Assembly (NCBI GenBank): GCA_037893245.1
Contig: JBAIAA010000103.1
Location: 806,001 to 870,000 of the forward strand
Length of the DNA: 64,000 bases
Origin: Crossaster papposus
Lineage: Eukaryota; Echinodermata; Asteroidea; Velatida; Solasteridae
Direction: 5' to 3'
This document shows positions 1,736 to 64,000 of the stretch, piece after piece. The translations under genes and the position numbers were made by a program. Under the pieces are notes generated by a model that was not told the origin of the DNA, did no database searches, and saw nothing but the letters and a program-made list of their open reading frames with translations. Positions within the stretch are counted from its first letter, which is position 1, and every line of letters starts with the position of its first letter.

Positions 1736-3070
1736 TTACGAAGTCAGCTCGATTCCAGCCGACATCATAACAGACAACGAAACCAAAATTAAGAAAGGAA
1801 CACTAAAATGAATGAGGATTGGAATCAAGGGGTTTTAACGAAATGAAATTAGATTATTTTAATATACAATTCACCAATTTACACATAAACCAGTATTAAT
1901 TAACAGATGCGGAAAACAATAATTTTTACATTATCAAATACCCTAAATTATACATTTGATTGGCCATGCTGAGAGGGGAGGTACCTCCGTCGGAATCCCG
2001 ACATCGAGTTTTCTGGGGAACAGTTCGGAAGCCGCGAGAGAGTTCTTGTCATGATGGAATCTTGATCGGCGACCTCCGAAGCTGGACCTTAGAGTGATGG
2101 AGAACGGTACGGGTGCGGAGAACGGTACAGGTGCGGAGAACGGTACAGGTGCGGAGAACGGTACGAGTGCGGAGAACGGTACACGTGCGGAGAACGGTAC
2201 ACGTGCGGAAAACGGTACACGTGCGGAAAACGGTACACGTGCGGAAAACGGTACACGTGCGGAAAACGGTACACGTGCGGAAAACGGTACACGTGCGGAA
2301 AACGGTACACGTGCGGGGAACGGTACAGGTGCGGGGAACGGTACAGGTGCGGGGAACGGTACAGGTGCGGGGAACGGTACAGGTGCGGGGGAACGGTACA
2401 GGTGCGGGGGAACGGTACAGGTGCGGGGGAACGGTACAGGTGCGGGGGAACGGTACAGGTGCGGGGGAACGGTACAGGTGCGGGGGAACGGTACAGGTGC
2501 GGGGAACGGTACAGGTGCGGGGAACGGTACAGGTGCGGGGAACGGTACAGGTGCGGGGAACGGTACAGGTGCGGGGAACGGTACTGGAGTAGACCGGATC
2601 AATGGGGTGTGTTTGGGCTATAGTCGACCAATCTACGAGGTGTCATAGCTGAAGGACACACCGGCGGAATCGGCACCATTATTGCTGGCCCAAGCCAAGC
2701 CAGCGGTCATTGTACGGCCGTCGTGTGGGCAAGAGACCGTGCCCAGTGCAGGTAGCGTCGGGCAAGGTACCGCCAGATCAGCGGCATCAGCCACACACAG
2801 TCCCACGACCGCACCCCAGACGACTGAAGATCAGAATTACGTTAACAACGAATTTCCAGTGTTTATAAGTCCGGAGGGAAATTCCAATGTCCATTGCAAT
2901 GCTCCGAAATGTTGCTGGACATCTGCGTAAATTCTCCAGACCAGGTACAAAAGTTTGTCGCAACAAAAGCGGGGAACGTCAGAATAGCGCGGACTCTCGA
3001 ACTTTACATAACTCAATTTGCATGTACATAAAACTTTAAATTACTTAAATTACTTTACGAATTCTTAACA
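1736..3070. mobile_element. Unclassified insertion inside DIRS-A, carrying a minisatellite
   Basis: The DIRS minus-strand coding sequence stops making sense at about 3070 (after DIFSICLHC) and resumes at about 1735 (NIRLEVQWIP), so about 1.33 kb was inserted between RNase H and the conserved linker. The insertion contains the 18-bp minisatellite at 2098-2590 and flanking sequence with no recognisable protein. The edges read TTAA on one side and ATAA on the other, so a TAA-type target duplication is possible but unproven; I see no clear terminal inverted repeats. The same insertion lies at the same place in DIRS-A' (about 57970-59361), so it predates the copying. Confidence 0.6.
2098..2590. 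repeat. 18-bp minisatellite, about 27 units
   Basis: The units are variants of GGTACACGTGCGGAAAAC. There is an initial block with GAGAAC ends, about eight units with the CACGTG core, then units with GGTACAGGTGCGG and GGGAAC or GGGGAAC ends; a run of 19-bp units carries one extra G. The array has no stops in several frames on both strands, which yields long artificial reading frames (Asn-Gly-Thr repeats on plus, Pro-Val-Pro-Phe repeats on minus). These are a by-product of the unit and not evidence of a protein. Confidence 0.95.
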
Positions 3071-4430
3071 ATGAAGACAAATTGAAAATATATCTAAAGA
3101 AATCTTATGTAGTTCATACTACCGACCTCTACAATGTGAGCTGCTGATTGGCTGTCTGTAAATAATTTAAGTTTAGAGTTTGATATTAGCGGCAAGAATG
3201 GTATAAGGGCAAATAAGAATGTGTTTAATTCTCGCCAAGTGGAGCTTTTGAAGGATTTGTTTTCTGTCCAATGCTTGTGAGCTACATGTACATCGTTACA
3301 TATAATGGACCCAGCTCCTTTTGCACTGGCATCGCAGCACATGATCTTGTTGACTACAGAGTTCTGGAAAATATAGCTAACATTTAGGTTGGCGACATGA
3401 GTTTTCCAAAAGTTGATTTCTGAATTACAAAATTCGTCTAATGTGATCTCTTGGTCTTCTGCAACAGCCAATTGGGAGTGACGAGTCATAAGCCTAGAAA
3501 TGTTCCCTACTACTGGACCTAACGATATTATTTGGCCAACAAAGGAATGTAATTTCCGTATAGGGAGTAGTTGCCTTAACTCAGACACTGTGGATATTAT
3601 CTTCTGTATACGTCTATCTATACCTGTAATGTTCCAGCTGCGGTATCCCATTTCAAACCTAGCCACTCACAACTTGTAGATGGAACCCAATTACTCTTCT
3701 GTATATTGGATACAAATCCAGCTTTGATCAAATCTGATTTAATGTGTTGAGCTACTTCCTGTGCATGCTTTAAGTTAGCAGAGTGATCAGAGGAAATGTT
3801 AGGTACAACACAAAATCCGTCGTCCAGATAAACAGCAATTGAAATGCCGTTCATCCTCCAATGAGTTACAAGTGGTTTCAAGATCTTGGTGAAAATATAT
3901 GGGGCACAAGAAAGACCAAAGGGGAGAACATTAAACTCAAAGTACCTTATCACATTGTCAACATTCCAAGTAAAACCAAGGTAAGGTTGAAAATCGTTAG
4001 CAATATCAATATGATGGTATCCAGACTTCAAATCAAAATTAATTAAATTAGCATTTTTAACCTTAAATTGGAGAGCTATTTTCTAATCGTCGAGTTTAAA
4101 GTGAGTCTTTTCAACAAATGCATTCAATCTACTCAAATCTAAAATTAATCTTCTTTTCCCCGATGATTGAAAGGATACAGATAAGGGACTCGCAATATAC
4201 GACGGCTCTCGTTTTTCTGTAATTCTGTCTGAATGCAGTAATCCTAAGACAGCTTCGGTTACGAAAATGTGCTCTTGCAAAGCTGATCTATTATTGTTAT
4301 TAAACATTATTGGGGGGGTCTCTAGAAATTGTATTCTATAACCTTGGTCTACTATTGAAAGGATAAAATTAGAAGTACCAATATTTTCCCAAAACTGTCC
4401 GTGTTCTTCAATTCTTTCTTTGACTGACAC
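3071..4430 (-). pseudogene. DIRS-A reverse transcriptase and RNase H
   Basis: Minus strand. 4430-4083 holds the RT N-terminus (PPIMFNNNNRSAL, KRRLILDLSRLNAFV). A stop follows, then 4031-3618 holds SGYHHIDI, VLPFGLSCAPYIFTK and the catalytic YLDDG. After a frame change, 3666-3094 holds LPIRKLHSFVGQIISLGP and RNase H (MCCDASAKGAGSIICN, WRELNTFLFAL, LFTDSQSAAHIVE). The Asp-Asp pair and the RNase H acidic residues are still present, but the stop near 4083 and the shifts mean no complete enzyme is made. Confidence 0.85.
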
Positions 4431-5119
4431 AAGATCTGAAGAAAGATCACAAGGAGCATCATTATTATAATTGCATGATCAAATTTGTCTTGGAGGTGAA
4501 CACGAGTTTGTGAAGATTCACATCGAAGGGGCTGTACTTGAGCCTGGTCTTGCTGGGATGACCGAGAGGTATGTGCTGCGGATGAGATGGTTGGGATTGA
4601 CTGCTGGATGGTAGGGATTTGCCATGGTGTGCTTGAGTAGTAATTGGCGTATGACGAGCTGGCTGGATTTGCCCTTGCTCTACACCCGAATGTGAAATGC
4701 TGGTGTCTCTGGAGAGGACATTTACGTGCCCAGTGTCCTGGTGTCTTGCAGATATAGCAGAACACGAGGTGAACACGAGTTGGTGAAGATTCACATCGAA
4801 GGGGCTGTACTTGAGCCTGGTCTTGCTGGGATGACTGAGAGGTATGTGCTGCGGATGAGATGGTTGGGATTGACTGCTGGATGGTAGGGATTTGCCATGG
4901 TCTGCTTGAGTAGTAATTGGCGTATGACGAGCTGGCTGGATTTGCCCTTGCTCTACACCCGAATGTGAAATGCTGGTGTCTCTGGAGAGGACATTTACGT
5001 GCCCAGTGTCCTGGTGTCTTGCAGATATAGCAGAAATCATTTGGCAAGCCTGTGTGAATTAGCAAAATATACAGCAAGCAAAATGTCTCGTATAAGGGCG
5101 GGAAAGCAAGGACCAGCAA
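4352..5119 (-). pseudogene. DIRS-A gag-like protein with two CCHC zinc knuckles
   Basis: A 255-codon minus-strand frame contains CYICKTPGHWARKC twice. This is the Cys-X2-Cys-X4-His-X4-Cys knuckle used by Gag proteins to bind RNA. The two knuckles lie in a 91-residue tandem repeat rich in Ser, Gln and Pro. The upstream part of a normal DIRS Gag is missing, and the frame ends just inside the RT start, so this is a remnant that could still be translated as a small RNA-binding protein. Confidence 0.7.
4494..5039 (-). repeat. 273-bp in-frame tandem duplication in DIRS-A gag
   Basis: 4494-4766 and 4767-5039 are direct copies with only a few differences. The period of 273 bp is exactly 91 codons, so the duplication keeps the frame and doubles the zinc knuckle. 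Confidence 0.93.
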
Positions 5120-34050: not shown

Positions 34051-35952
34051 TTGGAAAAATGTTTTGAGAGCCAGCGAATTTGTAGTCTATGTTATCGATT
34101 CGGGATACAAATTCCTTTTGTCATAACCCCACCTCCATTTTTCGCCAAGAATAATAGGTCCAGTTTGTATCACCCCGATTATGTCGCATCAGCCATTTCA
34201 GAGCTCTTGCGAAAGCAATGCATTACTGAAGTGGACACGCCACCTTACTGTTGCAACCCCTTAACCGTCGCCACAGGTAAAAAGCTTAGATTGGTGCTCG
34301 GTATGCGGCATCCCAATCAATACATATTAAAGTCCAAATTCAAGTACGAAGATCTCAAGCACATATCTCAAGTCCTCGACCATAACCAGTATTATTTTAG
34401 TTTTGACTTGGAATCCGGCTACCACCACGTAGATATCTTTCCTCCCCACCAGAAATATATTGGTTTTTCTTGGCAATTTGACAATACCACAAAATACTTC
34501 GTGTTCCGCGTTTTACCATTTGGCCTTTCCAGTGCATGTTATTTATTCACTAAGCTTATCAGGCCCCTAGTTTATCACTGGCGCGCACAAGGCATTACTT
34601 AATTAGTCTATATCGACGACGGATTAATCATTTCATCCTCTCTACATTCCGCATTGCGGAACTCCCTCATTGTGTATGAATCCATTTCCCTCAGCGGGTT
34701 CGTAACTAACAAAGCAAAATGCTCATGGCGGCCTAGCACGACCATCAAGTTTCTCGGACTCGTCATCGACTCCCTTACCATGAAATTCACACTTCCATCC
34801 GCAAAAACCGACAAGCTCGTACAATTTATAGATGACGTATTAGCTAAACATCGCCTTTCTGAACCCATTCAAGCTAGATCACTCGCTAGCGTCACGGGCA
34901 AACTTATCTCTATGACCCTTGCTTTAAGCCCAGTTACACGCCTCATGACGCGCGACATGTACCGATCTATTGAAACCAGGCATTCTTGGTCTGACCCCAT
35001 CATTATTTCGAATCGGGTAGAATCGGAGTTAAACTTTTGGCGTTCCAATCTTGATACGTACAACGGGTTCTCAATCAATCGCCAACACACCCCTTCTTGC
35101 TCTGTATACTCGGACGCAAGTGCTACAGGTTACGGTGGCTATGTCGTGGGATCCCCCTCGTTGAGTCCTCGCGGTTCATGGTCTAACTCCGAATGGTCGC
35201 GCAGTTCAACTTGGCGCGAACTATCAGCCGTCCATAAAGTACTTCTGGAACTTCGCGACGAAATTGCGCACGAAAAGGTTATATGGTATACCGACAACGC
35301 TGACGTTCCCCGTATTCTTTCCCATGGCAGTGCGAAGTCCGATTTACATGATCTGGCCTCGTCCATGTTTTCTTTGTGTCTTCAGTTCAATATTGTCATT
35401 TTACCCGAATGGGTCCCTCGTAATTTAAAGACCATTGCAGATAGCATCAGTAGAGTAAGTGATTACGACGATTGGTCAATCGACCAATCTACATTCGCCT
35501 CTATTGATAACCTTTGGGGCCCACATTCAATTGACCGCTTTGCTTCTTCTACTACTCGCAAAACACCGAGATTTAATTCCAGGTTTTGGTGCTGAAATTC
35601 GGCGGGAGTAGACGCTTTTTGTCACGATTGGTCAGATGATAACAATTATTTGTGCCCTCCCGTTTCTCTTATTGTACATACTATGAGATATCTAGCGAAA
35701 TGTCGTGGCGTCGGCACCCTCATTGTTCCAAAATGGACTTCCGCTTTCTTTTGGCCATTTGTTTGTCCTGACGGCACCCACTGTCTTGCACAGCTCTATT
35801 CACGATTGGCGACTTTTGAGTATTTCATTCACTCCACCCCTTATTACTCCTCGATCAATTTTCAGCAAATCGCCAGATTTCTGGTCCTTGGCCTTGCGAA
35901 TCGATCACAATTGTTCCCCCATAGAGACAAAAGTGGGCTTTTGTTGCTCTGA
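34051..35952 (+). pseudogene. DIRS-B reverse transcriptase, RNase H and linker
   Basis: RT motifs: RLVLGMRHPNQYI, FSFDLESGYHHVDIF, VLPFGLSSACYLFTK and the catalytic YIDDG. RNase H: SVYSDASATGYGGYV, WRELSAVHKVL and WYTDNADVPRIL. Linker: YDDWSIDQSTF, NLWGPHSIDRFAS and LIVPKWTSAFFWP. A TAA at 34600-34602 cuts the RT just before YIDDG and a TGA lies at 35593-35595; otherwise one frame persists to 35595. This is a dead copy with its catalytic residues intact. Confidence 0.9.
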
Positions 35953-36261: not shown

Positions 36262-36804
36262 ATGGCTGGTGCCATTAGTGCCCGTGTTCGTCTGTTGGTG
36301 TTTTTACATCTGGTTTTTATCATACATAATTCACAACGGGTTCAATTCTTTACTGATGCTGAGACTGTCAGAAATGAGTATTTTGTGTCTTCTGATCAGT
36401 ACATGTGTCTGACTAATTTTGTTGTGCCAATCACGCCCTGTCACGGGGTAACATTACAGCTGTGCCGTACTGGATTTAATTTCTCAAAAGTTCCATTAGT
36501 CAAATGGTCCAAACATGGCCAAACTACTCTAGTTATTCCTGGTCACGACCCTCCACATGATATAACAATATTTATGGATATTTCTGTTAACCCAGGCCCT
36601 CGTATTGGATGCACTAGCAATGACGAGTTGCATTTTATGTATACAGAAAATTCGCCTTCCATGTCTATAAATACAACTAGAATGTATTCCCGTAGTCAGC
36701 TTTTTAACATCCGTAAGACTTGTTATCACTCCACTCAGCCTGAATTGTTTTCGATTCTGAAAGCGAATGGAATTTTTCGGTTCAGGGGTAGCGGGTCATT
36801 GTAA
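36262..36804 (+). pseudogene. LINE-B N-terminal region with signal-like segment and NPGP
   Basis: Starts MAGAISARVRLLVFLHLVFI, which looks like a cleavable signal peptide or signal anchor. About 100 residues later comes FMDISVNPGP (AAC CCA GGC CCT at 36589-36600), a 2A-like ribosome-skipping motif in which the usual Glu of DxExNPGP is Ser. The frame then runs to GSGSL and stops; the conserved downstream part (RIPVHIGHRLDY) lies in another frame at about 36815. Confidence 0.75.
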
Positions 36805-36959
36805 CTATAAGTGTAGAATTCCTGTTCACATTGGTCACCGGCTTGATTATGTTCATAATAGGTTAGCTTTGGGTAACCGTATATACTCCTGTCCTTAAAC
36901 ACATTGTTGTAAATCCTGCCGATTCCTCTGATAATCTATTTAAACTCTGTTGCTTAAAT

Positions 36960-37430
36960 ACCAGATTTCTTATGCTATTATAAGGCTGATTTGTTTGCCC
37001 TTACAGAGACTTGGTTTACAGATATAGATGTTGCCCACAAGGTTGAAGCAACTCCACCTGGTTTTAGATTGCTGGATCATCCCCGGAAAAACCGTGTGGG
37101 GAGAGGCACTGCTTTGTTGTTTCGTGATCATTTGCATGTCAAGAAAATTGCTAGAGATGAATTAGATTCATTTGAGTTTTCAGAATTGTCTGTAGGAATT
37201 AATTCGTTTAAATTACGACTTGTAATCATTTACAGGCCACCTTACTCAGTTAGCCATCCTTGTACAGTTAATCGGTTTATCACTGAATTTGCCGATTATT
37301 TAGAATCCATTATTTTATCTTCTGAACCAATTTTAATAACTGGAGATTTTAACATTCATGTTGACATATCTGACGATCCAAACACTAAACGTTTTTTAAC
37401 ACTTCTTGAATCCATGGGTCTCCGGCAACA
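36960..37430 (+). pseudogene. LINE-B apurinic-type endonuclease, first part
   Basis: Shows LFALTETWFTDIDV, GRGTALLFRD, VIIYRPPYS and ILITGDFNIHVDI, the catalytic and structural motifs of the endonuclease that nicks the target DNA. It breaks off at GLRQH where the Helitron enters and resumes at 40065 with VNKPTHEMGHILDLVITR and SDHFSVIC. Confidence 0.88.
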
Positions 37431-37454
37431 TCTATATACTATAAAAGATGAAAA

Positions 37455-37540
37455 ATGCGCCATCTTGTCCCTGGGCGCCGCCATCTTGGAACACAGGGCC
37501 GCGCCATCTTGGCGCGTGGTTGGCGCCATGTTGGAGAGAC
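37455..37540 (+). promoter_or_regulatory. Cluster of YY1-like GCCATCTTG motifs at the Helitron head
   Basis: GCGCCATCTTG, GCCGCCATCTTGG, GCGCCATCTTGG and GCGCCATGTTGG occur within about 80 bp, in GC-rich surroundings that continue to about 37600. GCCGCCATCTTG is the vertebrate YY1 consensus. The cluster resembles a TATA-less promoter and might be captured host DNA. Confidence 0.5.
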
Positions 37541-38014
37541 GCGGCGCTTTTGGTCGGGTGAATCGTCGCCGTGCGTGTGTGTCGCCGGCGTCGGTGCGGC
37601 GGGGTATAAGATTTAAAAAAACAAACCTATTCGTCCGTGGTGAGATTTAGAAGAAACAGACGTTACTGATAAACGTGTAGTCGCTTTTTGATTGCTGTTG
37701 ATGTGTGTGGGCCTTTTTTGCGTAAACTATTGCATTATTTTTGCATTATCCCTGCCGGAGTTCGGGCCGAAGCCTTCCCAAATTCGTATCCCGTTAAGTT
37801 GCTCTTTAGCCGAATTGTTGGCTGTTCGCGATTACAGTACACAAAACCTTCGCTAATTGTATCCGCCTTGCTCGCGCTGTAGCCGAGTTGTTGCCGAGTT
37901 GGTTGTTCGCGATTAGGCGGCGCATCCCGTGTTATTTGAGCTGGTGCCCCGCTTTATACTCCCTTGGTTATTGCGGAGTTTCCTGGAAACATATAGCAAC
38001 CAGTGAGCGCCAGC

Positions 38015-39950
38015 TTCGTTTTCGGCTTCGAATTCGTGCGCGTTGACCACTTTGTACTCACAGGTTTGGAACGTTAAAAAAATGATTTATTCCTTTCGCG
38101 TTGCCTTTCGGGCAAATTTCTCCCTTTCACATTGTCGATACTTAAATTTTACAACTTTATCTCTGTAAAAACACTCGAAATATTATCGCTATTGCGCAAA
38201 TGTTAACGTTCATCGTGCAAAAATATTGCGAAATTATATCGATCGTGGATATGAATATGCAATTTAGAAACGGGACTGCATACGTCAGTTGAGGGCGCAC
38301 TCTCAGATCGCCGGCCTGTTGGTTTTTAAATCATGATTTTCACGATATAAAATCAGAAATCCCGAAGTGGTTCGTATTGTTTCCCGTACGATTCCTGTTA
38401 AAAATCATGAGACGCAGGCAGCATGCAAGCGAAGATGGACTGCCTATTGAGTATTATTAGTTCGGAAGTCGGGAAGTATTTTTTACAAAGATTGTTTTTA
38501 TTCAGAGTCAATGGTATTCTACGGAGCCCCTAAAGGGACATATGACGAATAAAAGTCACCGTTACGAAATAATTTGAGTTTTTTATTTCTTACACTCAAA
38601 ATAACTTATTTGGTGAGCTCGAAATGTTTTCGTGGCTACGAAATAACTTCGTGCGCTCCAAAATAATCTGTTCGTGTGCTCAAAATAATTTCGTGCGCTG
38701 TAAATCGCGGTTTGTTTGTCATTGCTATTGCCTCATAATTACCTTTGATCGTGCAAAAATGTCGCGAAATTGTATGGCGATCGTAGCCTTTAAACAAGGC
38801 CACATGTCTGATAGACGCCGAGCGACTAAAAAGAGACTAATCGCGAAAACCTGAGTGACGTCAGTGCGAATTGCCCAGACAAGTGGCCTTTATCAATCTG
38901 GTTTGGATTTCTTATGTTAACCTTTGTTTCCAACTTGAATCGCTACCTATATGGTAGCGTCCAATCAGCGAACGTATCTCTGCGTGACGTCAGCTTATAT
39001 TTGAGTTGGATTAGTTCATTTTACAAACAGGGAATGTCCAATCATGTCACTTACAATATTTAGCTCAAATCATTAGTTGCTTCCTAATTTATTGAAATTT
39101 TGCATGTAAAATAGATTTAAATGTGATATCTTGTATTTATCATTCATATATTCAACTCAGAAGCAACATTTATTTACGTTTTTTTTACCTTTTCTTACAT
39201 GCTTTGATATTGAACGAATCACGAACGAAGCCAACTGGGAGATCGCCGTTCTGATTGGGCGTATTGACATGCTAATATGTACTATGAATAATTCATGCCG
39301 AGCAGTGAAACCTACATTGCAAAAGGCCTCGTGACATTCGTCACTCGGTCGCGCGTTCACCCCGGGTATCTAGACTCATCTCAGCCGCTTAGCCAGAGTC
39401 ACGAGGCCTTGTCAAAAGGCTATGGCGATCGTGGATATGAATATATGCAATTTAGAAACGTGACTGCGTTTCGGACTCGGCTTTGCCTCCGAATTCCTGC
39501 GCGTCGACCATTTAGGAGTCACAGTTTTGGAACGTAAAAACAATGATTTATTCTTTTCGTGTTGCCTTCTGGACAAATTTCTTCCTTTCACATTGTCAAT
39601 ACTCAAATATTAAAACATTATCTTTTTAAAAACACTCCGAAACATATCGCTATTGCCTCAATTTTAACTTTGATCGTGCAAAAATGGCGATCGTGGATAT
39701 GAATATTCAATTTGGAAACGTGACTGCATTACGCAGATTGTTTTTACTTAGAGTCAACGGTATCCTACGGAGCCCCTAAAGGGACATATGACGAATGCAA
39801 ATCACCGTGACGAAATCGTTTGATTATTTAATTTCTTGCGCTCGAAACCATTTCGTTCCCACGAAATAATTTCGTGCGCTCGAAATAACTTCGTGCCCAC
39901 TAAATGATTTCGTGCGCTCGAAAAAATTATTTCCGTGAGCTCGAAATTTT
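38015..39950. repeat. Internal diverged direct repeats of the Helitron
   Basis: About 38015-38700 and 39470-39950 share ordered blocks: AACGTTAAAAAAATGATTTA-type, TTTCACATTGTC, GATCGTGGATATGAATAT, CTACGGAGCCCCTAAAGGGA and CATATGACGAAT. Each ends in an array of CGAAATAAYTTCGTGCGCTC units of about 20 bp (38625-38705 and 39830-39950). Confidence 0.8.
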
Positions 39951-40029
39951 CTCCGTTTGTTTGTCACACAATCCATTATGTTTTTAGGACGTCAACAAGG
40001 TGTCTCTATACGTTACGATTCCACCCAGC

Positions 40030-40064
40030 TAGCGGGTGCCGCGCGAAGCGCGGCATCCCGCTAG
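40030..40064 (+). terminator. Helitron 3' hairpin and CTAG terminus
   Basis: GCGGGTGCCGCGC pairs with GCGCGGCATCCCGC around a GAA loop with one bulged base, and the stem is flanked by CTAG on both sides, the second being the element end. This hairpin is the transposition termination signal of Helitrons, not a transcription terminator. Confidence 0.88.
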
Positions 40065-42403
40065 TGTTAACAAACCTACACATGAGATGGGTCACATACT
40101 AGATCTTGTTATTACCCGGAAATCGGACATAGTTCTTAACAGTACCCCGACACCTCACCACCTTTTCTCTGATCATTTCTCTGTTATTTGCAACTTGCAA
40201 CAAAACAAGTCTTCTTTTCCTGCTAAACAGATTGTTTATAGGGATATTAAATCCATTGACATTAATTGCTTGAAAAGTGACTTAGTCTCTTCTAGGCTGT
40301 GCAGGGACACTCCTCAAGGTCTTGAGGAGCTTACGAATTGTTACAACAGCTGGTACCTTCAACACACATGCCCCGTTAAAGTCCAAGATGGTCACCACTA
40401 GGCCCCGTCTACCTTGGTTTAATCAAAAAATCAACTCTGCCTTGAGGATGAGGAGACGTGCAGAAAATAAATGGCGACGAACTAACATGGCCGCTGATCT
40501 TTCAAAATATAAGCTAATAAGAAATAAGGTAACCTTTCTTCTTAACAAAGCTAGCTGCAACTTCTAACAAAGACTTTATCGAAAGTAATAGTTCCGACCA
40601 GAGAAAATTATTTAGAGCATCTAAAAAGCTGCTTGGACATAGTAATGACGTCCTCTTTCCACCTTTTAAAGATAAAATGACCCTTGCTAATGATATGGGT
40701 AGCTTTTTTGTAAAGAAAATATCTAATATTCATGCTAAACTTGATGACTTAGAAGTTTCAACCTCTGTTGGCAGAACGTTCTCTTTTACATCTGAAACAT
40801 TGTCCAGTGGTATCTTGTTTGATAGTTTCATACCATTAACAGAGTCACAGGTAAAACAGCTTGTTGTAAATTCTTCTAAGGGATCATGCGCTCTGGATCC
40901 TATGCCTACTAACCTTGTGGGTGAGTGCCTTGATGTTTTGCTTCCAGTACTTACCAACATTATAAACTCATCTTTAGTATCTGGCACATTTCCTACTGAC
41001 TGGAAAGAAGCTTTAATTTGCCCTTTATTAAAAAAACACAATCTTGATAAGAAATTAGAAAACTACCGGCCAATCAGTAATTTACAATTTATTTCTAAAT
41101 TAACTGAGAGGGCCGTTTGTGACCAACTTTATTGTCACATGTCAAAACATTCCATGTTTCCGGTTTTCCAATCATCTTACCGGAAGCATCACAGTACAGA
41201 GACGGCGCTTATAAAGGTTAAAAATGATTTACTGATGAGGATGAATTCCCAACATGTTATTCTGCTTATTCTTTTAGACCTGGGTGCAGCATTCGATACT
41301 GTTGATCACGTCATTTTATTGAAACGTCTGCAGTCTAAATTTGGAGTCCCTGGCAAGGCCCTCGATTGGTTTTCGTCTTATTTGTCAGATAGAAGCCAAC
41401 GCGTATCCATTCAAGGTACCTTATCAGACAAGTTTAATATCAACTGTGGTGTTCCTCAGGGATCCTGCTTAGGACCATTTTTATTCATTGTCTACGCCTC
41501 TAAATTGTTTGACATCATTGAGCATCATCTGCCTGATGTTCATTGTTATGCCGATGACACTCGGCTGTATCTATCTTTTAGACCTGACGATATATCTTGT
41601 CAAGCTGCTGTAACTGTAATGGAAAATTGCATCAGGGACATCAGGCAATGGGTGTTGCATGACCGGCTTTTAATTAATGACGCTAAGAGTGAATTTTTGA
41701 TCATCGGATCAAAGCAGCAGTTAAAGAAAATTAATATTTCTGATATCATGATAGGCGATGTTAAAGTTTTCCCTACAACATGTGTTCGTAATTTGGGGTC
41801 ATGGTTTGATTCTGAACTTACAATGAATACCCACATCAATAAAGCTTGCTCTGCAGCCTTTTTCCATCTTCATAACATCAAACGAATTAGTCAATTCCTG
41901 ACGCAAGACTCTCTTGTAAAACTAATTCATGCATTTGTGACCAGTCGCCTTGATTATTGTAATAGCCTTTTGTATGGTCTGCCAAAGTCACAGCTAGCTA
42001 AACTGCAAAGGGTTCAAAGTGCTGCAGCCAGAATTGTTACTAACACACCCCGGTTTGAACACATTACACCTATAATTTGTCAATTACATTGGCTGCCTGT
42101 TTTGTACAGGATTAATTTTAAAATTCTTTTGTTGACCTTCAAAGCTCTTCATGGTCTTTCCCCAAAGTACTTATAGGATCTTGTTTCCATCCGGAAAGTA
42201 TCTTCATATCAACTTAGGTCAGGGAATAATGGTATTTTCTAAGATTATCCCTCTGGTAAAATGTTGACTACATTTGGTGACAGGGCTTTTTCTGTGGCAG
42301 CCCCTAAGCTTTGGAATGCGCTACCGTTTCATATACGTAGCGAACAGAAACTCACCTCTTTTAAATGTAACATAAAAACCCATCTTTTTAAAGCCGCTTT
42401 TTA
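40065..42403 (+). pseudogene. LINE-B endonuclease end and reverse transcriptase
   Basis: 40065-40400 completes the endonuclease (ILDLVITRKSDI, SDHFSVICNL). A frameshift follows, then 40677-42176 carries a 499-codon RT frame: CPLLKKHNLDKKLENYRPIS, LLDLGAAFDTVDH (motif A), CGVPQGSCLGPFLF (motif B), HCYADDTRLY (motif C, catalytic Asp pair) and HAFVTSRLDYCN. A stop at 42174-42176 and another at 42241 interrupt the C-terminus (FGDRAFSVAAPKLWNALP still legible). Catalytic residues are present but the protein cannot be made whole. Confidence 0.9.
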
Positions 42404-53044: not shown

Positions 53045-53989
53045 ATGTCGGCCAAAGCGCCCTCGACTACCAAGAAATACGTCGCCTACTGGAATAGATG
53101 GCAGGACTGGGCTTCCTCCAAAACCGGCGTCTCCGTCTTCCCTGTTGACCCTTTCCACTTATCACTTTTCATCGCACATCTTGCTACCCACGGGCATAAG
53201 ACGGTCGCCGATTCTGTCGTAGCGGCGGTTAAGTGGGTCCACAGCCTGGCCGGCTTGCCCTCCCCTACAGACAACACAGTGGTAAAAACTACCCTAGAGG
53301 GCTTCAAGCGCCTGAACTCAAAGGCACCTGTTCGGAAGGAACCTATCACACCTGACATATTAACAAAAATCCTTGACAGCCACGGACATCCAAACGCCAC
53401 TCTCGCCGATTTGCGGATCGTCTTTATTTGCCTTGTTTCTTACGCAGGCTTCCTTCGTTTCAGCGACCTAGCCGGGGTCACGCGAAAGGACTGTAGAATC
53501 ACAGACGGCCGTCTATCAATCCATCTCGCACGGTCAAAGTGCGACCAGTTCAGACAAGGAGCAGAGGTGTTAATAGCCAGGACATTCCAACATACCTGCC
53601 CTGTGACCGCAGCCGAGCGGTACTTTGCCGCTGTTGGCGATCCGGTGGACTCGTCGTCGTTGCCCGTGCTTCGCAGACTGGTCAGCACCAAAAAGGGCCT
53701 CATTGCGACTGTCCATCCACTAAGCTATTCTCGTACACGCGAGATTATCTTGGACGCACTTCGTCCCATTGTTCCTGATGTATCCCTGTATGGCCTCCAC
53801 AGCCTGAGATCGGGAAGGGCCACAGCCGCCTGCAATGCTCATGTTCCTGCTTTCTTAATTTCCAAACACGGCCGATGGAAGACAGAAACCGCCCGAAACG
53901 CCTACATGAAACCGGACACCGCATCCCTGTTGCTCCCTTCTCAATCGCTTGGAATTTATTTACAATACACATTTATTATTAATTATTAA
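53045..53989 (+). CDS. DIRS-C tyrosine recombinase, apparently intact
   Basis: A 314-codon frame; the same frame is open back to 52981 (LLNLAKTNLPSLLMSAKAPS). In DIRS elements this enzyme inserts the circular DNA copy without target duplication by cutting and rejoining strands through a Tyr-DNA intermediate. N-terminal core-binding domain: STTKKYVAYWNRWQDWASS and ADSVVAAVKWVHSLAGLP. Catalytic domain: SYAGFLRFSDLAGVTRKDC with the first Arg, GLHSLRSGRATAAC with the His-x-x-Arg pair, then SKHGRWKTETARNAYM with the His and the nucleophilic Tyr. No stop or shift interrupts it although the rest of the element is gone. The last residues after PSQSLG are probably read-through. Confidence 0.9.
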   Translation: MSAKAPSTTKKYVAYWNRWQDWASSKTGVSVFPVDPFHLSLFIAHLATHGHKTVADSVVAAVKWVHSLAGLPSPTDNTVVKTTLEGFKRLNSKAPVRKEPITPDILTKILDSHGHPNATLADLRIVFICLVSYAGFLRFSDLAGVTRKDCRITDGRLSIHLARSKCDQFRQGAEVLIARTFQHTCPVTAAERYFAAVGDPVDSSSLPVLRRLVSTKKGLIATVHPLSYSRTREIILDALRPIVPDVSLYGLHSLRSGRATAACNAHVPAFLISKHGRWKTETARNAYMKPDTASLLLPSQSLGIYLQYTFIINY

Positions 53990-57469: not shown

Positions 57470-58200
57470 TTTTGAATATAATTGAACCTATGAGAGAATG
57501 CTTGTTTCGTCCTAACGTGAGATTATTGTATCCCGACACAGAAATGAAGGCTTTAATACCGGCCTTGTAAGATGACCATCATAGTAAAGGCCAAAAGGGG
57601 GGAAGAGGGTCACCAAGGAAAGACAAGTACTCCTTTGCATTTACACATTAACAAGTGACGCAGAACGTTAGGAATAAGAAGTACTGGCTGAACTAAACGA
57701 CAGTTTTCGTTGTCCAATTTTGTGAAAAAGCATCGACTCCAGAGGATCCAGGGTTCCAAAATGTTGAAAAGAATCTTGGTAATTTGGCGTTATAATAGGT
57801 TGCGAAACAATCTACTGTAAATGGACCCCATAGATCGGTAATGGTGACGAAGAAATCTTCAGAAATTGACCAGTCATCCAAGTCAACTAGTTTACTGCAT
57901 GATGAAATCGGTTTGTTCATTTGCTGTTCTGGGAATCCACTGTACTTCTAATCTGATGTTATTATGATGTTACGAAGTCAGCTCGATTCCAGCCGACATC
58001 ATAACAGACAACGAAACCAAAATTAAGAAAGGAACACTAAAATGAATGAGGATTGGAATCAAGGGGTTTTAACGAAATGAAATTAGATTATTTTAATATA
58101 CAATTCACCAATTTACACATAAACCAGTATTAATTAACAGATGCGGAAAACAATAATTTTTACATTATCAAATACCCTAAATTATACATTTGATTGGCCA
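57470..58200 (-). pseudogene. DIRS-A' linker segment
   Basis: 57920-57693 repeats the LDDWSISEDFF and ITDLWGPFTVDCFA frame of DIRS-A. From about 57970 rightward the shared inserted block begins. Confidence 0.7.
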
Positions 58201-58331
58201 TGCTGAGAGGGGAGGTACCTCCGTCGGAATCCCGACATCGAGTTTTCTGGGGAACAGTTCGGAAGCCGCGAGAGAGTTCTTGTCATGATGGAATCTTGAT
58301 CGGCGACCTCCGAAGCTGGACCTTAGAGTGA

Positions 58332-58880
58332 TGGAGAACGGTACGGGTGCGGAGAACGGTACAGGTGCGGAGAACGGTACACGTGCGGAGAACGGTACAC
58401 GTGCGGAGAACGGTACACGTGCGGAGAACGGTACACGTGCGGAAAACGGTACACGTGCGGAAAACGGTACACGTGCGGAAAACGGTACACGTGCGGAAAA
58501 CGGTACACGTGCGGAAAACGGTACACGTGCGGAAAACGGTACACGTGCGGAAAACGGTACACGTGCGGAAAACGGTACACGTGCGGAAAACGGTACACGT
58601 GCGGGGAACGGTACACGTGCGGGGAACGGTACAGGTGCGGGGGAACGGTACAGGTGCGGGGGAACGGTACAGGTGCGGGGGAACGGTACAGGTGCGGGGG
58701 AACGGTACAGGTGCGGGGGAACGGTACAGGTGCGGGGGAACGGTACAGGTGCGGGGGAACGGTACAGGTGCGGGGGAACGGTACAGGTGCGGGGGAACGG
58801 TACAGGTGCGGGGAACGGTACAGGTGCGGGGAACGGTACAGGTGCGGGGAACGGTACAGGTGCGGGGAACGGTACAGGAG
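58332..58880. repeat. 18-bp minisatellite, about 30 units
   Basis: Same unit as at 2098-2590, but with about 14 CACGTG-type units instead of eight and a different order of 18- and 19-bp units, so the array has changed length since the copies separated. The long frames across it are artefacts. Confidence 0.95.
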
Positions 58881-59361
58881 TAGACCGGATCAATGGGGTG
58901 TGTTTGGGCTATAGTCGACCAATCTACGAGGTGTCATAGCTGAAGGACACACCGGCGGAATCGGCACCATTATTGCTGGCCCAAGCCAAGCCAGCGGTCA
59001 TTGTACGGCCGTCGTGTGGGCAAGAGACCGTGCCCAGTGCAGGTAGCGTCGGGCAAGGTACCGCCAGATCAGCGGCATCAGCCACACACAGTCCCACGAC
59101 CGCACCCCAGACGACTGAAGATCAGAATTACGTTAACAACGAATTTCCAGTGTTTATAAGTCCGGTGGGAAATTCCAATGTCCATTGCAATGCTCCGAAA
59201 TGTTGCTGGACATCTGCGTAAATTCTCCAGACCAGGTACAAAAGTTTGTCGCAACAAAAGCGGGGAACGTCAGAATAGCGCGGACTCTCGAACTTTACAT
59301 AACTCAATTTGCATGTACATAAAACTTTAAATTACTTAAATTACTTTACGAATTCTTAACA

Positions 59362-60251
59362 ATGAAGACAAATTGAAAATATATCTAAAGAAATCTTATG
59401 TAGTTCATACTACCGACCTCTACAATGTGAGCTGCTGATTGGCTGTCTGTAAATAATTTAAGTTTAGAGTTTGATATTAGCGGCAAGAATGGCATAAGGG
59501 CAAATAAGAATGTGTTTAATTCTCGCCAAGTGGAGCTTTTGAAGGATTTGTTTTCTGTCCAATGCTTGTGAGCTACATGTACATCGTTACATATAATGGA
59601 CCCAGCTCCTTTTGCACTGGCATCGCAGCACATGATCTTGTTGACTACAGAGTTCTGGAAAATATAGCTGACATTTTAGGTTGGCGACATGAGTTTTCCA
59701 AAAGTTGATTTCTGAATTACAAAATTCGTCTAATGTGATCTCTTGGTCTTCTGCAACAGCCAATTGGGAGTGACGAGTCATAAGCCTAGAAATGTTCCCT
59801 ACTACTGGACCTAACGATATTATTTGGCCAACAAAGGAATGTAATTTCCGTATAGGGAGTAGTTGCCTTAACTCGGACACTGTGGATATTATCTTCTGTA
59901 TACGTCTATCTATACCTGTAATGTTCCAGCTGCGGTATCCCATTTCAAACCTAGCCACTCACAACTTGTAGATGGAACCCAATTACTCTTCTGTATATTG
60001 GATACAAATCCAGCTTTGATCAAATCTGATTTAATTTGTTCAGCTACTTCCTGTGCATGCTTTAAGTTAGCAGAGTGATCAGAGGAAATGTTAGGTACAA
60101 CACAAAATCCGTCGTCCAGATAAACAGCAATTGAAATGCCGTTCATCCTCCAATGAGTTACAAGTGGTTTCAAGATCTTGGTGAAAATATATGGGGCACA
60201 AGAAAGACCAAAGGGGAGAACATTAAACTCAAAGTACCTTATCACATTGTC
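59362..60251 (-). pseudogene. DIRS-A' RNase H and part of the reverse transcriptase
   Basis: It encodes the same motifs as DIRS-A (VLPFGLSCAPYIFTK, AVYLDDGFCV, LPIRKLHSFVGQIISLGP, MCCDASAKGAGSIICN). A 1-bp insertion near 59680 adds a frameshift not present in DIRS-A. The RT is cut at NVIRYFEF by the LINE-C insertion. Confidence 0.88.
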
Positions 60252-60252
60252 A

Positions 60253-63200
60253 GCGCCTAACAAGCTGCCACTCAAATCAGCTCTGCAAATTTTTGCCAAT
60301 TTCTTTGTGTTTTGCTTCATTTGTGTTCTCACTCTTATACCACTGGATTTGTTACAACACCAGGAATCTGCTGGACTTTTTCTGTGCATCTTGGAGTCAT
60401 CTATGATGTGAAATTGGTGATTTTCTGTTGGATTTTTGCTGAGTCACATCGAGAAATTTGCTGTACAGAGCTAACACACACATTGGTGGTTGCATTGCTG
60501 TGCGGTCAGCCATCACCTCCATTACATAACACTGTTTATTATGCCCAGCTGTGGACAATGGAGGTCAGCTTCCTGTTTATTCTCTCCCTGCTTGCTGGAC
60601 CACTGTGCTCCAATGACTCATCTGTGGTCAGCTTTCAGCAATCAACATCAACTGTGTACAGTGCATGCACTATGCCAAAGACATTAAAATCCATCCAACA
60701 TCGAAGATACCTTAAATGCCCTGTTCCTTACTATGACAACTCACCAGCTAGTTTTCACTTGGAAATTGTGATCTTTGGTGACATTGCTCTAAATCCCGGT
60801 CCTGATGCTGAAAATAATTCGAACTCGGAAACCAGTCTGAAATCTTCAATTTCCTACTCCCGTAACAAGCTTCTTAGTCTGCGTTATGCCCCATCTACAC
60901 GTGCTACAACTTTACCTTCATGCCCTATTGAGTTACAGAATCTCGGACTTTTTGTAAATCCCAACTGTATTTACCAACCTACACATCGTGGTAAAAAAGC
61001 GGGTCGCCGTAGAACAGTTCACCAATCACTACAGCCTGAACCCACACACCCATCTGTTCCAGCACCAGTGACTCACGCCAAATCCCAACTCAGCTTTTGT
61101 GTTTTAAATACACAGTCCATCTGTAACAAGTCTGAAGACTTCGTGGATTTTGTTCTGCAGAAAAATCTAGACCTTGTTGCTGTGTCTGAAACATGGCTGA
61201 GACCAGGTGATGACCTAACATGTCGTCAGTGTACCCCTGCTGGCTACTATTTTCATCAAATTCCTAGACCTCACAAGACTGGAGGGGGAGTTGCAATACT
61301 TTACAGATCCAGTTTATGTGTCTCTGTGAAAGATAATAACATCCATTACACAACTTTCGAATCTCTTCATGCTGAAATAACAGGAAACTCAAAATCTGTT
61401 CGCCTCGTCGTTTTATACAGACCCGAAAGAGATGCCAACGGCCATCATGTGACTTTTTCAAGTTTTCTTCAAGAATTTGAGAATTTGATTTTGGAATATC
61501 TCCTACACCCATCTGACATCATCATCACCGGTGACTTCAACATTCATGTTGATGACATCCATAACACCAATGCAAACCAATTCAAGCATTTGCTATCGGC
61601 TTATGGCCTTATCCAGCATGTCACGGAGCCGACTCATCGTCTCGGTCATTGTCTGGACCTTGTAATAACTCGTGATATCACCCCACCTGCTGTCTCTAAC
61701 ATTACGATTCTACCTGGATTATCAGACCATTATGCAGTTATGTGTAATTTGAGCCTGTGCAAGCCCAACATCCCAACCATCACTGTAAAGACCCGACAGT
61801 GGAAAAACGTAGATCTTCCTGAAGTGTTCCGGGATATAGGAACTCATTTGGAAAAATTAAACCTCGATCATGACGACTTGAATGTATATGTCAGCCAATA
61901 CGAAAGTACTGTCCGTGACATCTTGGATTTACACGCACCTTTGAAAACAAGATCTGTCAAGGTCCGAACTGAATTTCCTTGGTTCAATGATGACATTAGA
62001 GCTGCAAGAAAGATTCGTCGTCAACTTGAGCGAAAATGGCGGGAAAACGGAAAACTTGAATCACACCGACGAGAATATCGCAACCAATGTAATGTGGTTA
62101 GGAAATTGATCAACCAGGTGAAGATTACCCACTTCACATCCCAAGTTCATGAATCCTCAGGAGATCAAAAGAAGCTCTTCAAGATAATTGATAAACTGTT
62201 GCTGAAACCCAGAACCCCTGTCCTTCCATCCAACTACAATGATCAGGATCTGGCAAATGAATTCTCCAAGTTCTTTGTCACCAAGATTTCAGACATCCGC
62301 TCATCATTCTCATCGGCCCCTTGTGACATGCGCCAGACATCGCCACATCTTCACCAAGACTGTAGACTCTATGTGTTTGAGCCTACCACTGCTGCTGAGA
62401 TTCAAAGAATTATCATGAAATCTCCTACAAAATCCTGTGAACTGGACCCAGTATCAACATCCATGATAAAGCAGAACATTGATACATTTGTTCCGTACAT
62501 CACTGCACTTGTAAACAAATCTCTCAGCTCCGGTCACTTCCCCGATAGCCTCAAGATTTCCTACATCAGGCCGCTCATCAAGAAACCCAACCTGGACAAG
62601 GAGGTATTCAAAAACTACAGACCAGTTGCGAACTTAAAGTATCTCGGAAAAGTCATTGAACGAGTAGTTTCATCACGCATTCGCGATCATATTGATGCTT
62701 TCAACCTGTCCGACACGTTCCAGTCGGCATACAAGCCTTTCCATGGGACGGAAGTTGCACTAGTCCGTGTGAACAACGATATTCTTTCAGCCATGGACAA
62801 TGGAAACCTTACAGCACTAGTCCTATTAGACTTGAGTGCCGCTTTTGACACTGTTGACCACAACATCCTCCTCTCCCGGCTTCAGAATTACCTCGGCATA
62901 CAGGACACAGCCCTAGCATGGTGCAATTCTTATCTCTCCAATCGAACTCAGCACGTGTGTATCGGCACTGCAATATCAGACCCGGTTGTCTTGAACTACT
63001 CTGTGCCACAGGGGTCAGTACTGGGCCCACAGTGGTTTACGCTGTACACTTTGCCAATTCGTGACATCATTTTAAAATTTAACCTGAATTACCATGTCTA
63101 TGCGGACGACACTCAGCTATACATCACGTTTAAATCTTCTCGAGAACATGCCAATGCCTCCATTGAAAGACTTGAGAAATGTATCCAAGAGATTCGCCAC

Positions 63201-64000
63201 TGGACGCAACAGAACTTCCTGAAGTTAAATGACGACAAGACAGAGTTCCTTTTATTTGGATCACGTCAACAATTATCAAAAGTTTCAGTGCCATACATTT
63301 CCATCGGTGATGCTCAGATAGCTCCCTCGTTGCAGGCTCGGAACTTGGGTGTTATTTTTGATTCGTCAATGACACTTCAACCACACATCAACAACGTCAT
63401 TCGTCTCTCAACATTTCACATCAGGAACATCGGTAAAATACGCAAGTTTTTGGACAAGAGCGCTACAGAAAAAGTAATTCATGCATTTGTCACTTCTCGC
63501 CTTGACAACGGCAATGCCCTTTTCTATGGTCTTCCGCATAACCAGATTGCTCGTCTCCAACGCCTCCAAAACACCGCAGCCCGCATGGTTACACTCTCTA
63601 AAAAATCCTGTTCCATCACCCCCATCCTGGAACAACTTCATTGGCTCCCTGTCTCTCAACGAATAATCTTCAAGCTTATGCTAATTGTCCACAAAGCACT
63701 CAATGGCAAGGCTCCCCATTACATCTCAGAACTTCTTCAAGTTTACACTCCATCAAGGAACCTACGATCCAGCAACATGCTTCTCCTCAAGGAATCCAAG
63801 TCACGACACTCGTGGGGCGACAGACGTTTTTCTGCAGCTGCACCACACATCTGGAACTCTTTACCGCTTAATCTTAGATCTTGTCTGTGTACAACAAAAT
63901 TCAAATCACTTCTCAAAACTTATCTCATGTCTCAGGTTTTCAAGAACTAATTTATTTGTTCCTCTCATTTGTTATTGTTTCTTTCAAGTTAAATATTACT
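60253..64000 (+). mobile_element. LINE-C: apparently full-length, intact LINE
   Basis: It begins within the DIRS-A' RT (sequence departs from DIRS-A after CACATTGTCA at 60252), has a leader of about 60-300 bp, one long frame and a 3' untranslated region that leaves the window. No stops or shifts are seen. It is inserted opposite in orientation to the DIRS coding strand. The protein architecture matches L2/CR1-group LINEs. Confidence 0.9.
60312..63950 (+). CDS. LINE-C ORF2-like protein: NPGP motif, endonuclease, reverse transcriptase
   Basis: A 1212-codon frame. The natural start may be the Met at 60558 (residue 83), which begins MEVSFLFILSLLAGPLCSND, a convincing signal peptide. GDIALNPGP at residues 156-164 (Asn codon at 60792) is a 2A-like ribosome-skipping motif with Ala in place of the usual Glu. 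Endonuclease: FCVLNTQSICNK, LVAVSETWLR, GGGVAILYR, IIITGDFNIHVDD and SDHYAVMCNL. RT: YIRPLIKKPNLDK, LVLLDLSAAFDTVDHN (motif A), SVPQGSVLGPQWF (motif B), HVYADDTQLYITF (motif C) and ARNLGVIFDSSM. The C-terminal region has LQRLQNTAARMV and WNSLPLNLRS. All catalytic residues are present. Skipping at NPGP would release a secretory-pathway peptide and a separate enzyme. Confidence 0.93.
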   Translation: MLHLCSHSYTTGFVTTPGICWTFSVHLGVIYDVKLVIFCWIFAESHREICCTELTHTLVVALLCGQPSPPLHNTVYYAQLWTMEVSFLFILSLLAGPLCSNDSSVVSFQQSTSTVYSACTMPKTLKSIQHRRYLKCPVPYYDNSPASFHLEIVIFGDIALNPGPDAENNSNSETSLKSSISYSRNKLLSLRYAPSTRATTLPSCPIELQNLGLFVNPNCIYQPTHRGKKAGRRRTVHQSLQPEPTHPSVPAPVTHAKSQLSFCVLNTQSICNKSEDFVDFVLQKNLDLVAVSETWLRPGDDLTCRQCTPAGYYFHQIPRPHKTGGGVAILYRSSLCVSVKDNNIHYTTFESLHAEITGNSKSVRLVVLYRPERDANGHHVTFSSFLQEFENLILEYLLHPSDIIITGDFNIHVDDIHNTNANQFKHLLSAYGLIQHVTEPTHRLGHCLDLVITRDITPPAVSNITILPGLSDHYAVMCNLSLCKPNIPTITVKTRQWKNVDLPEVFRDIGTHLEKLNLDHDDLNVYVSQYESTVRDILDLHAPLKTRSVKVRTEFPWFNDDIRAARKIRRQLERKWRENGKLESHRREYRNQCNVVRKLINQVKITHFTSQVHESSGDQKKLFKIIDKLLLKPRTPVLPSNYNDQDLANEFSKFFVTKISDIRSSFSSAPCDMRQTSPHLHQDCRLYVFEPTTAAEIQRIIMKSPTKSCELDPVSTSMIKQNIDTFVPYITALVNKSLSSGHFPDSLKISYIRPLIKKPNLDKEVFKNYRPVANLKYLGKVIERVVSSRIRDHIDAFNLSDTFQSAYKPFHGTEVALVRVNNDILSAMDNGNLTALVLLDLSAAFDTVDHNILLSRLQNYLGIQDTALAWCNSYLSNRTQHVCIGTAISDPVVLNYSVPQGSVLGPQWFTLYTLPIRDIILKFNLNYHVYADDTQLYITFKSSREHANASIERLEKCIQEIRHWTQQNFLKLNDDKTEFLLFGSRQQLSKVSVPYISIGDAQIAPSLQARNLGVIFDSSMTLQPHINNVIRLSTFHIRNIGKIRKFLDKSATEKVIHAFVTSRLDNGNALFYGLPHNQIARLQRLQNTAARMVTLSKKSCSITPILEQLHWLPVSQRIIFKLMLIVHKALNGKAPHYISELLQVYTPSRNLRSSNMLLLKESKSRHSWGDRRFSAAAPHIWNSLPLNLRSCLCTTKFKSLLKTYLMSQVFKN

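Follow-up and report, generated by a model that had tools for sequence, protein, structure and literature searches.

Structure of LINE-C and its copies

We analysed a 64,000-nt stretch of the Crossaster papposus genome (contig JBAIAA010000103.1, positions 806,001 to 870,000; hereafter, the window), whose right-hand end carries LINE-C on the forward strand. As the original prediction stated, the element is intact; a single ORF of 1130 codons without an internal stop runs from 60558 to 63950 and encodes endonuclease (EN) and reverse transcriptase (RT) domains. Translation would begin at the first in-frame ATG (60558, +; ACAATGG), which we take to be a strong start context by Kozak rules. Residues 1-18 (60558..60611, +) form a signal-peptide-like N-terminus by matrix score, with predicted cleavage after Ser18. 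They are followed by a leader-peptide spacer containing Met39 (60612..60692, +) and by a 28-residue block common to other LINE families (60693..60776, +; shuffle p<0.01), which ends in RRYLKCPVPYYDNSPASFHLEIVIF. The 2A/StopGo-like core GDIALNPGP occupies residues 74-82 (60777..60803, +), and the bond predicted to be skipped lies between Gly (60798-60800) and Pro (60801-60803).

Downstream of the core, a linker (60804..61124, +) contains YSRNKLLSLR and RGKKAGRRR stretches common to relatives, and not a single Met occurs between GDIALNPGP and the Pfam EN domain. The APE-type endonuclease domain (Exo_endo_phos, PF03372; residues 190-391; 61125..61730, +) was recognized with an E-value of 4.4e-19 and the reverse transcriptase domain (RVT_1, PF00078; residues 674-932; 62577..63353, +) with an E-value of 3.7e-29; the latter is also similar to LINE-1 ORF2 structures. 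With an APE endonuclease and a LINE-type RT in one ORF, present in multiple copies, LINE-C belongs to the APE-type non-LTR retrotransposons. The core had been placed about 80 residues into the protein and just before the endonuclease. Its position and its order relative to EN are correct, whereas "just before" does not hold, as the Pfam domain begins approximately 108 residues past the motif.

The 5' untranslated region (60250..60557, +) was delimited by the homology limit among copies. The 5' end lies at approximately 60250; four other copies stop matching at approximately 520-530 nt 5' of the motif, and two (L040 and L041) give up the ungapped register earlier. The frame 5' of the ATG is open nearly throughout this region (60261-60557), so a non-AUG start is possible. 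Because its 5' flank matches window positions 1767-3960 at 98-99%, LINE-C was judged to lie inside another repeat. This repeat occurs twice (1767-3960 and 58001-60252, 98-99% identity), with LINE-C starting within the second copy, and includes a minisatellite of approximately 18-19-nt units (..AACGGTACACGTGCGG..). No 3' end of LINE-C was seen within the window.

Among the seven LINE-C copies read in long form, five, including the window copy, carry the intact 1130-codon ORF, and the other four of these are 99.82-99.97% identical to the window copy; the remaining two (L032 and L041) are broken. The LINE-C family is young. A search of the genome with the LINE-C EN domain, in which 150 of 2254 candidates were scored, gave 18 full-length matches at 100%. 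Three EN copies outside the 15 places that carry the motif (L100, L101 and L102) are 5'-truncated, since their LINE-C homology ends before the motif. At five further places in G000 (four in C427 and one in C287), the EN query matched only from residue 81, at 98%, within the same 923-residue open frame; these belong to a subfamily that is either truncated or chimeric, or are duplicates.

A decayed relative with the same layout, LINE-B, is located at 36262..42401 (+). Its core, MDISVNPGP (36574..36600, +), has Ser at the Glu position and is shared with L091 and L092, whose N-terminal region is near-identical to that of LINE-B. The LINE-B endonuclease is interrupted at approximately 37434-40066 by an insertion with units repeated at 19-nt spacing.

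The NPGP core across the genome and in relatives

Codons for exactly GDIALNPGP were found at 29 places in the assembly (1.02 Gb, 1841 contigs) and at none for the reversed control pattern; the LINE-C motif is not a chance occurrence. By their codons, the 29 places fall into three families, namely LINE-C (15), F3 (9) and F2 (5). The core codons of LINE-C differ synonymously from those of the other two families, which counts in favour of StopGo activity. Leaving the Glu position open (GD[VI]x[FILMV]NPGP) yielded 97 places, again with none in the control, and this is a lower bound because Met-first and Pro-type cores fall outside the pattern. A hand count over these places gave E 41, A 37, S 11, D 6 and K 2 at the Glu position. 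Long-form reading covered 41 of them (A 25, E 11, S 3 and D 2) and short-form reading 5; homology to LINE-C EN or RT followed downstream in 39 of the 41, the misses being L052 and L064.

In PMC12846837, the viral StopGo core is given as (D/G/C/N)(V/I)ExNPGP, with p14 almost exclusively Glu and rarely His. LINE-C resembles the viral sequences described there in Gly at p11, Asp at p12, Ile at p13, NPGP and the hydrophobic residues just 5', and thus has the D/G/C/N, V/I and NPGP residues of a 2A sequence. It differs from them at p14, which is Ala in LINE-C and A, S, D or N in its relatives. Without Glu at this position, the core was filed as 2A-like and not as canonical 2A. The original prediction had noted the Ala, and it turned out to be family-wide and not a private defect. 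All 15 LINE-C places have the same Ala, and the idea of a decay mutation was dropped; Ala is the family state of LINE-C, not damage. Moreover, all five intact, almost identical copies carry Ala, which shows that this residue does not preclude recent transposition.

The RT tree (unrooted, 16 tips, loci of this analysis only) contained a 100/100 split separating LINE-C, F2, L060, LINE-B and L015 from the other tips. The four motif-bearing elements on the LINE-C side have A, A, S and S at the Glu position. By parsimony, this position changed at least seven times over the tree, several inner nodes of which are weak.

Relatives were also collected without using the motif. Identity and open frame guided the choice of 24 loci from the EN search, with one to three taken from each apparent family; approximately 1 kb upstream of each was read. 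D[IV]xxNPGP was present in 14 of the 24. In none of these was the Glu position E; it was D, N, A or S. D and NPGP were invariant, and I or V followed D. The cores were GDIDPNPGP (L076, L077 and L099), GDVNPNPGP (L090), MDISLNPGP (L081 and L084), MDIAANPGP (L083 and L086), MDISINPGP (L087), MDISSNPGP (L088, L089 and L093) and MDISVNPGP (L091 and L092). In six relative families, the core thus opens with Met (MDIS.. or MDIA..), a possible internal start that counts against StopGo activity.

NPGP was missing from the other 10 loci. Upstream frames ended short of its expected place in L096, L097 and L098, and the upstream sequence appeared unrelated by eye in L085 and L094. The remaining five (L078, L079, L080, L082 and L095) have longer frames and still no NPGP, so the motif is not universal among relatives. 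The original prediction would have been undermined by family members that had not conserved NPGP; by this criterion, it was not refuted. The open-NPGP pattern found 15 LINE-C places, all of which keep it, although this is a weak guide to constraint because the copies are so young. A pure search-filter effect was dropped as an explanation of NPGP conservation after these motif-neutral searches (15/15 copies and 14/24 relatives).

A Met lies between NPGP and the YSR-like stretch in 2 of 11 NPGP families and before the stretch in 6 of 6 families without NPGP (Fisher p=0.002), a count made by eye and after the fact, excluding L060 (frame broken there), L085, L094 and L098. As this was a post hoc eye count and Met lies within the core itself in six families, replacement of NPGP by Met in sister families was not relied on.

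Beyond the starfish assembly, a protein search of viral_contigs gave no relatives, and the 12 stretches matching the GDI..NPGP pattern there had no LINE homology. A first RT pattern matched nothing in viral_contigs or genome_contigs; a second matched nine times in genome_contigs and once in viral_contigs, including a near full-length LINE relative (L015) and a fragment (L022). No match was found among the phages and plasmids searched. L015 (PIVJ01000154.1) is 38% identical to LINE-C over residues 92-1128; its contig is filed under a Bacteroidetes MAG and is probably eukaryotic contamination. The absence of NPGP upstream of its own YSR stretch counts against StopGo activity.

D12A and N16A abolish skipping, E14Q was partly active (56% or 26% retained in earlier work), and Pro at p19 is optimal without being strictly needed (PMC12846837). 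In PMC6249498, changing N, P or G to Ala abolished skipping, and one mutant with Ala in place of Glu was weakened, not inactive. The residues whose change abolishes skipping (D, N, P and G) and the last Pro are fixed in the motif-bearing relatives. A StopGo site whose p14 is relaxed would show this pattern, in which D, I/V and NPGP are conserved, together with the block in part of the families, and p14 and p15 vary freely.

These patterns bear on the possibility that the core is a relic that lost skipping along with its Glu, EN-RT being made as a fusion or through leaky scanning to the signal-less Met39. The near-invariance of Glu in the viral StopGo sequences of PMC12846837 fits such a loss, Met39 (with A at -3) is a possible leaky-scanning start, and relatives without NPGP exist. 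However, a relic should have shed N, P, G and P as well. Instead, D[IV]xxNPGP is complete in four elements of the LINE-C group (RT 40-47% identical) and in the 14 motif-neutral loci, with variation at the Glu position and the residue next to it, and some copies of the families with Ala at this position keep long open frames. We regard a relic as unlikely.

The core could also be a site at which the nascent chain pauses or arrests, helping EN-RT to associate with its own RNA or with the ER, with no peptide released. In StopGo as described in PMC12846837, D and N touch the exit tunnel and the peptidyl-transferase centre and Glu stacks on rRNA, so the residues held in these LINEs are the contacts and the one that changed is the rRNA stacker. 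Yet the Pro after Gly is fixed too, and families of other LINEs in the same genome have the full canonical core. A mere pause is rather improbable.

The signal-like leader and the block before the core

N-termini were scored with a von Heijne-type matrix, a score of 5.8 or more being considered high. The LINE-C N-terminus, MEVSFLFILSLLAGPLCS with predicted cleavage before NDSS, scored 7.9, exceeding shuffles of its own residues (p=0.007), in agreement with the signal-like start claimed originally; by this matrix, a hydrophobic core and a cleavage site are present at the first Met. For comparison, only 2 of 127 Mets inside EN-RT reached 5.8. A first Met could be tested in 15 motif classes, and 10 of these had at least one copy at or above this score, a comparison tilted towards the classes because one passing copy suffices. 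The shuffle p was below 0.05 in the other nine high-scoring classes.

Low scores were obtained for L031, L038, L044, L053, L064 and L067, sister copies of passing classes, several of which are truncated or changed upstream. Several 2A classes also scored low (L062, L060, L063, L068, L069, L081, L084 and L091), which counts against a leader coupled to StopGo. L075, a LINE-B-like element with GDVSV, scored 8.1, and LINE-B itself scored -5.7 despite a hydrophobic start. Among the motif-neutral relatives, 7 of the 17 scored reached 5.8 (three of them one family). They include L079 and L080, which are without NPGP, so the signal-like start and NPGP are not strictly tied. Searched alone against PDB sequences, the leader gave no match at E 10.

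The block before the core supplies the conserved upstream context of approximately 25-30 residues expected of a 2A sequence. That of LINE-C resembles the block of 7 of 14 other families (shuffle p<0.01). At the same threshold, 22 of 105 family pairs were alike, all within eight families whose blocks have Y-x-N in common. Between L060 and L061, the block is 50% identical over 28 residues versus 27% for RT. By eye, the LINE-C block falls outside the viral hexapeptide classes, although some relatives have LLLSG-like ends that are reminiscent of them. Leader dN/dS was below 1 for L052/L066, L052/L054, L064/L070 and LINE-C/L076, pairs with few changes or a nearly saturated dS. For the L037 and L033 pairs, leader changes were too few for judgement. 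Within LINE-C, the copies are too alike for selection on the leader to be measured.

These data also address the possibility that skipping is real and the N-terminus is not a true signal, the T-rich start being hydrophobic by composition and the leader cytosolic. The in-frame 5' UTR of LINE-C is hydrophobic as well, and some families score low. The same-residue shuffles, in LINE-C and in the nine other classes, argue against a purely compositional effect, as do the N-x-S/T/C sequons found in 9 of 15 blocks. LINE-C itself has N-S-P there and so is without the N-x-S/T sequon of relatives such as L076 and L090, which counts against a secreted leader. Overall, a cytosolic leader appears the least probable of the alternatives.

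Predicted separation of the leader from EN-RT, and other elements

The most likely reading, to which we assign a probability of roughly 55%, is that a partial or context-compensated StopGo site frees a nuclear EN-RT from an ER-targeted leader. LINE-C would then be one polyprotein composed of a leader peptide (the first 81 residues) and EN-RT (the remainder). The signal-like start would bind SRP, and the leader would pass into the ER. Once ...GDIALNPG had been made, the nascent chain would act from within the exit tunnel to prevent the next peptide bond. After release of the leader into the ER, translation by the same ribosome would restart at Pro82. The linker at 60804..61124 would follow Pro82 as the N-terminus of the separated, signal-free EN-RT, which could reach the nucleus, and chains made without skipping would be fusions sent to the ER. 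With a leader that goes to the ER, separation would be useful, since EN-RT must reach the nucleus. The anatomy, its recurrence, the conserved core in relatives and the young age of the family are observed, and skipping, ER entry, cleavage and partition in LINE-C are all inferred here from sequence. Because the site has Ala instead of Glu, it is probable that skipping occurs only part of the time or that the conserved block preceding the core makes up for the missing Glu. The original proposal of a secreted peptide and a nuclear enzyme from one message is partly supported, in that many LINE families of this genome have the motif and many have a signal-like start; in some relatives, the leader is present and NPGP is absent.

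More tentatively, this arrangement may extend to a LINE group with a secreted product. In such a group, a Glu-less StopGo core, D(I/V)[A/S/D/N]xNPGP, with its own conserved tunnel context would split an ER-directed, often sequon-bearing leader from the nuclear EN-RT, and sister elements without NPGP would carry Met near the same point.

The presence of 2A in LINEs is already known. Odon et al. in 2013 reportedly found 2A-like sequences in APE-type non-LTR retrotransposons with a Glu-containing motif; no signal leader upstream is known to us from that work. Like those animal LINEs, as reported, LINE-C has one long ORF with a 2A-like core 5' of the APE endonuclease; unlike them, LINE-C and its group have no Glu. 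A Glu-less core in a LINE group with a signal leader was not found among the publications listed in our searches, although either feature may already be described in Odon 2013 or Rao 2025. What appears new, against the known 2A-in-LINE theme, is a group that has no Glu and has a signal-like leader. If the leader is secreted, the LINE would export a peptide from the cell, for which we know of no precedent. Furthermore, with a natural Glu-less set in which D, N, P, G and P are held, the part played by Glu and any compensation by the upstream chain can be tested directly.

A related arrangement exists in sea urchin NLRs, where, according to Roulston et al. 2016 (PMC4981915), the signal sequence is itself a 2A, one 26-residue sequence with a canonical core serving as both. 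As in these proteins, a signal function and StopGo lie near one N-terminus in LINE-C and split targeting is predicted. The LINE-C signal (1-18) and core (74-82) are separate, so it does not have a dual signal-2A sequence.

Other elements were observed alongside. In other 2A-bearing families (L037, L066, L067 from 1528), a PHD finger lies directly after NPGP and before EN and RT, the match in L066 being slightly below Pfam's cut-off. Two ORFs in the window, at 53045-53989 and 34654-35595, appeared by eye to encode a tyrosine recombinase and an RT-RNase H of another element and had no Pfam match at 0.001. In addition, an ORF with repeated CCHC zinc knuckles is located at 4352-5119 on the reverse strand.
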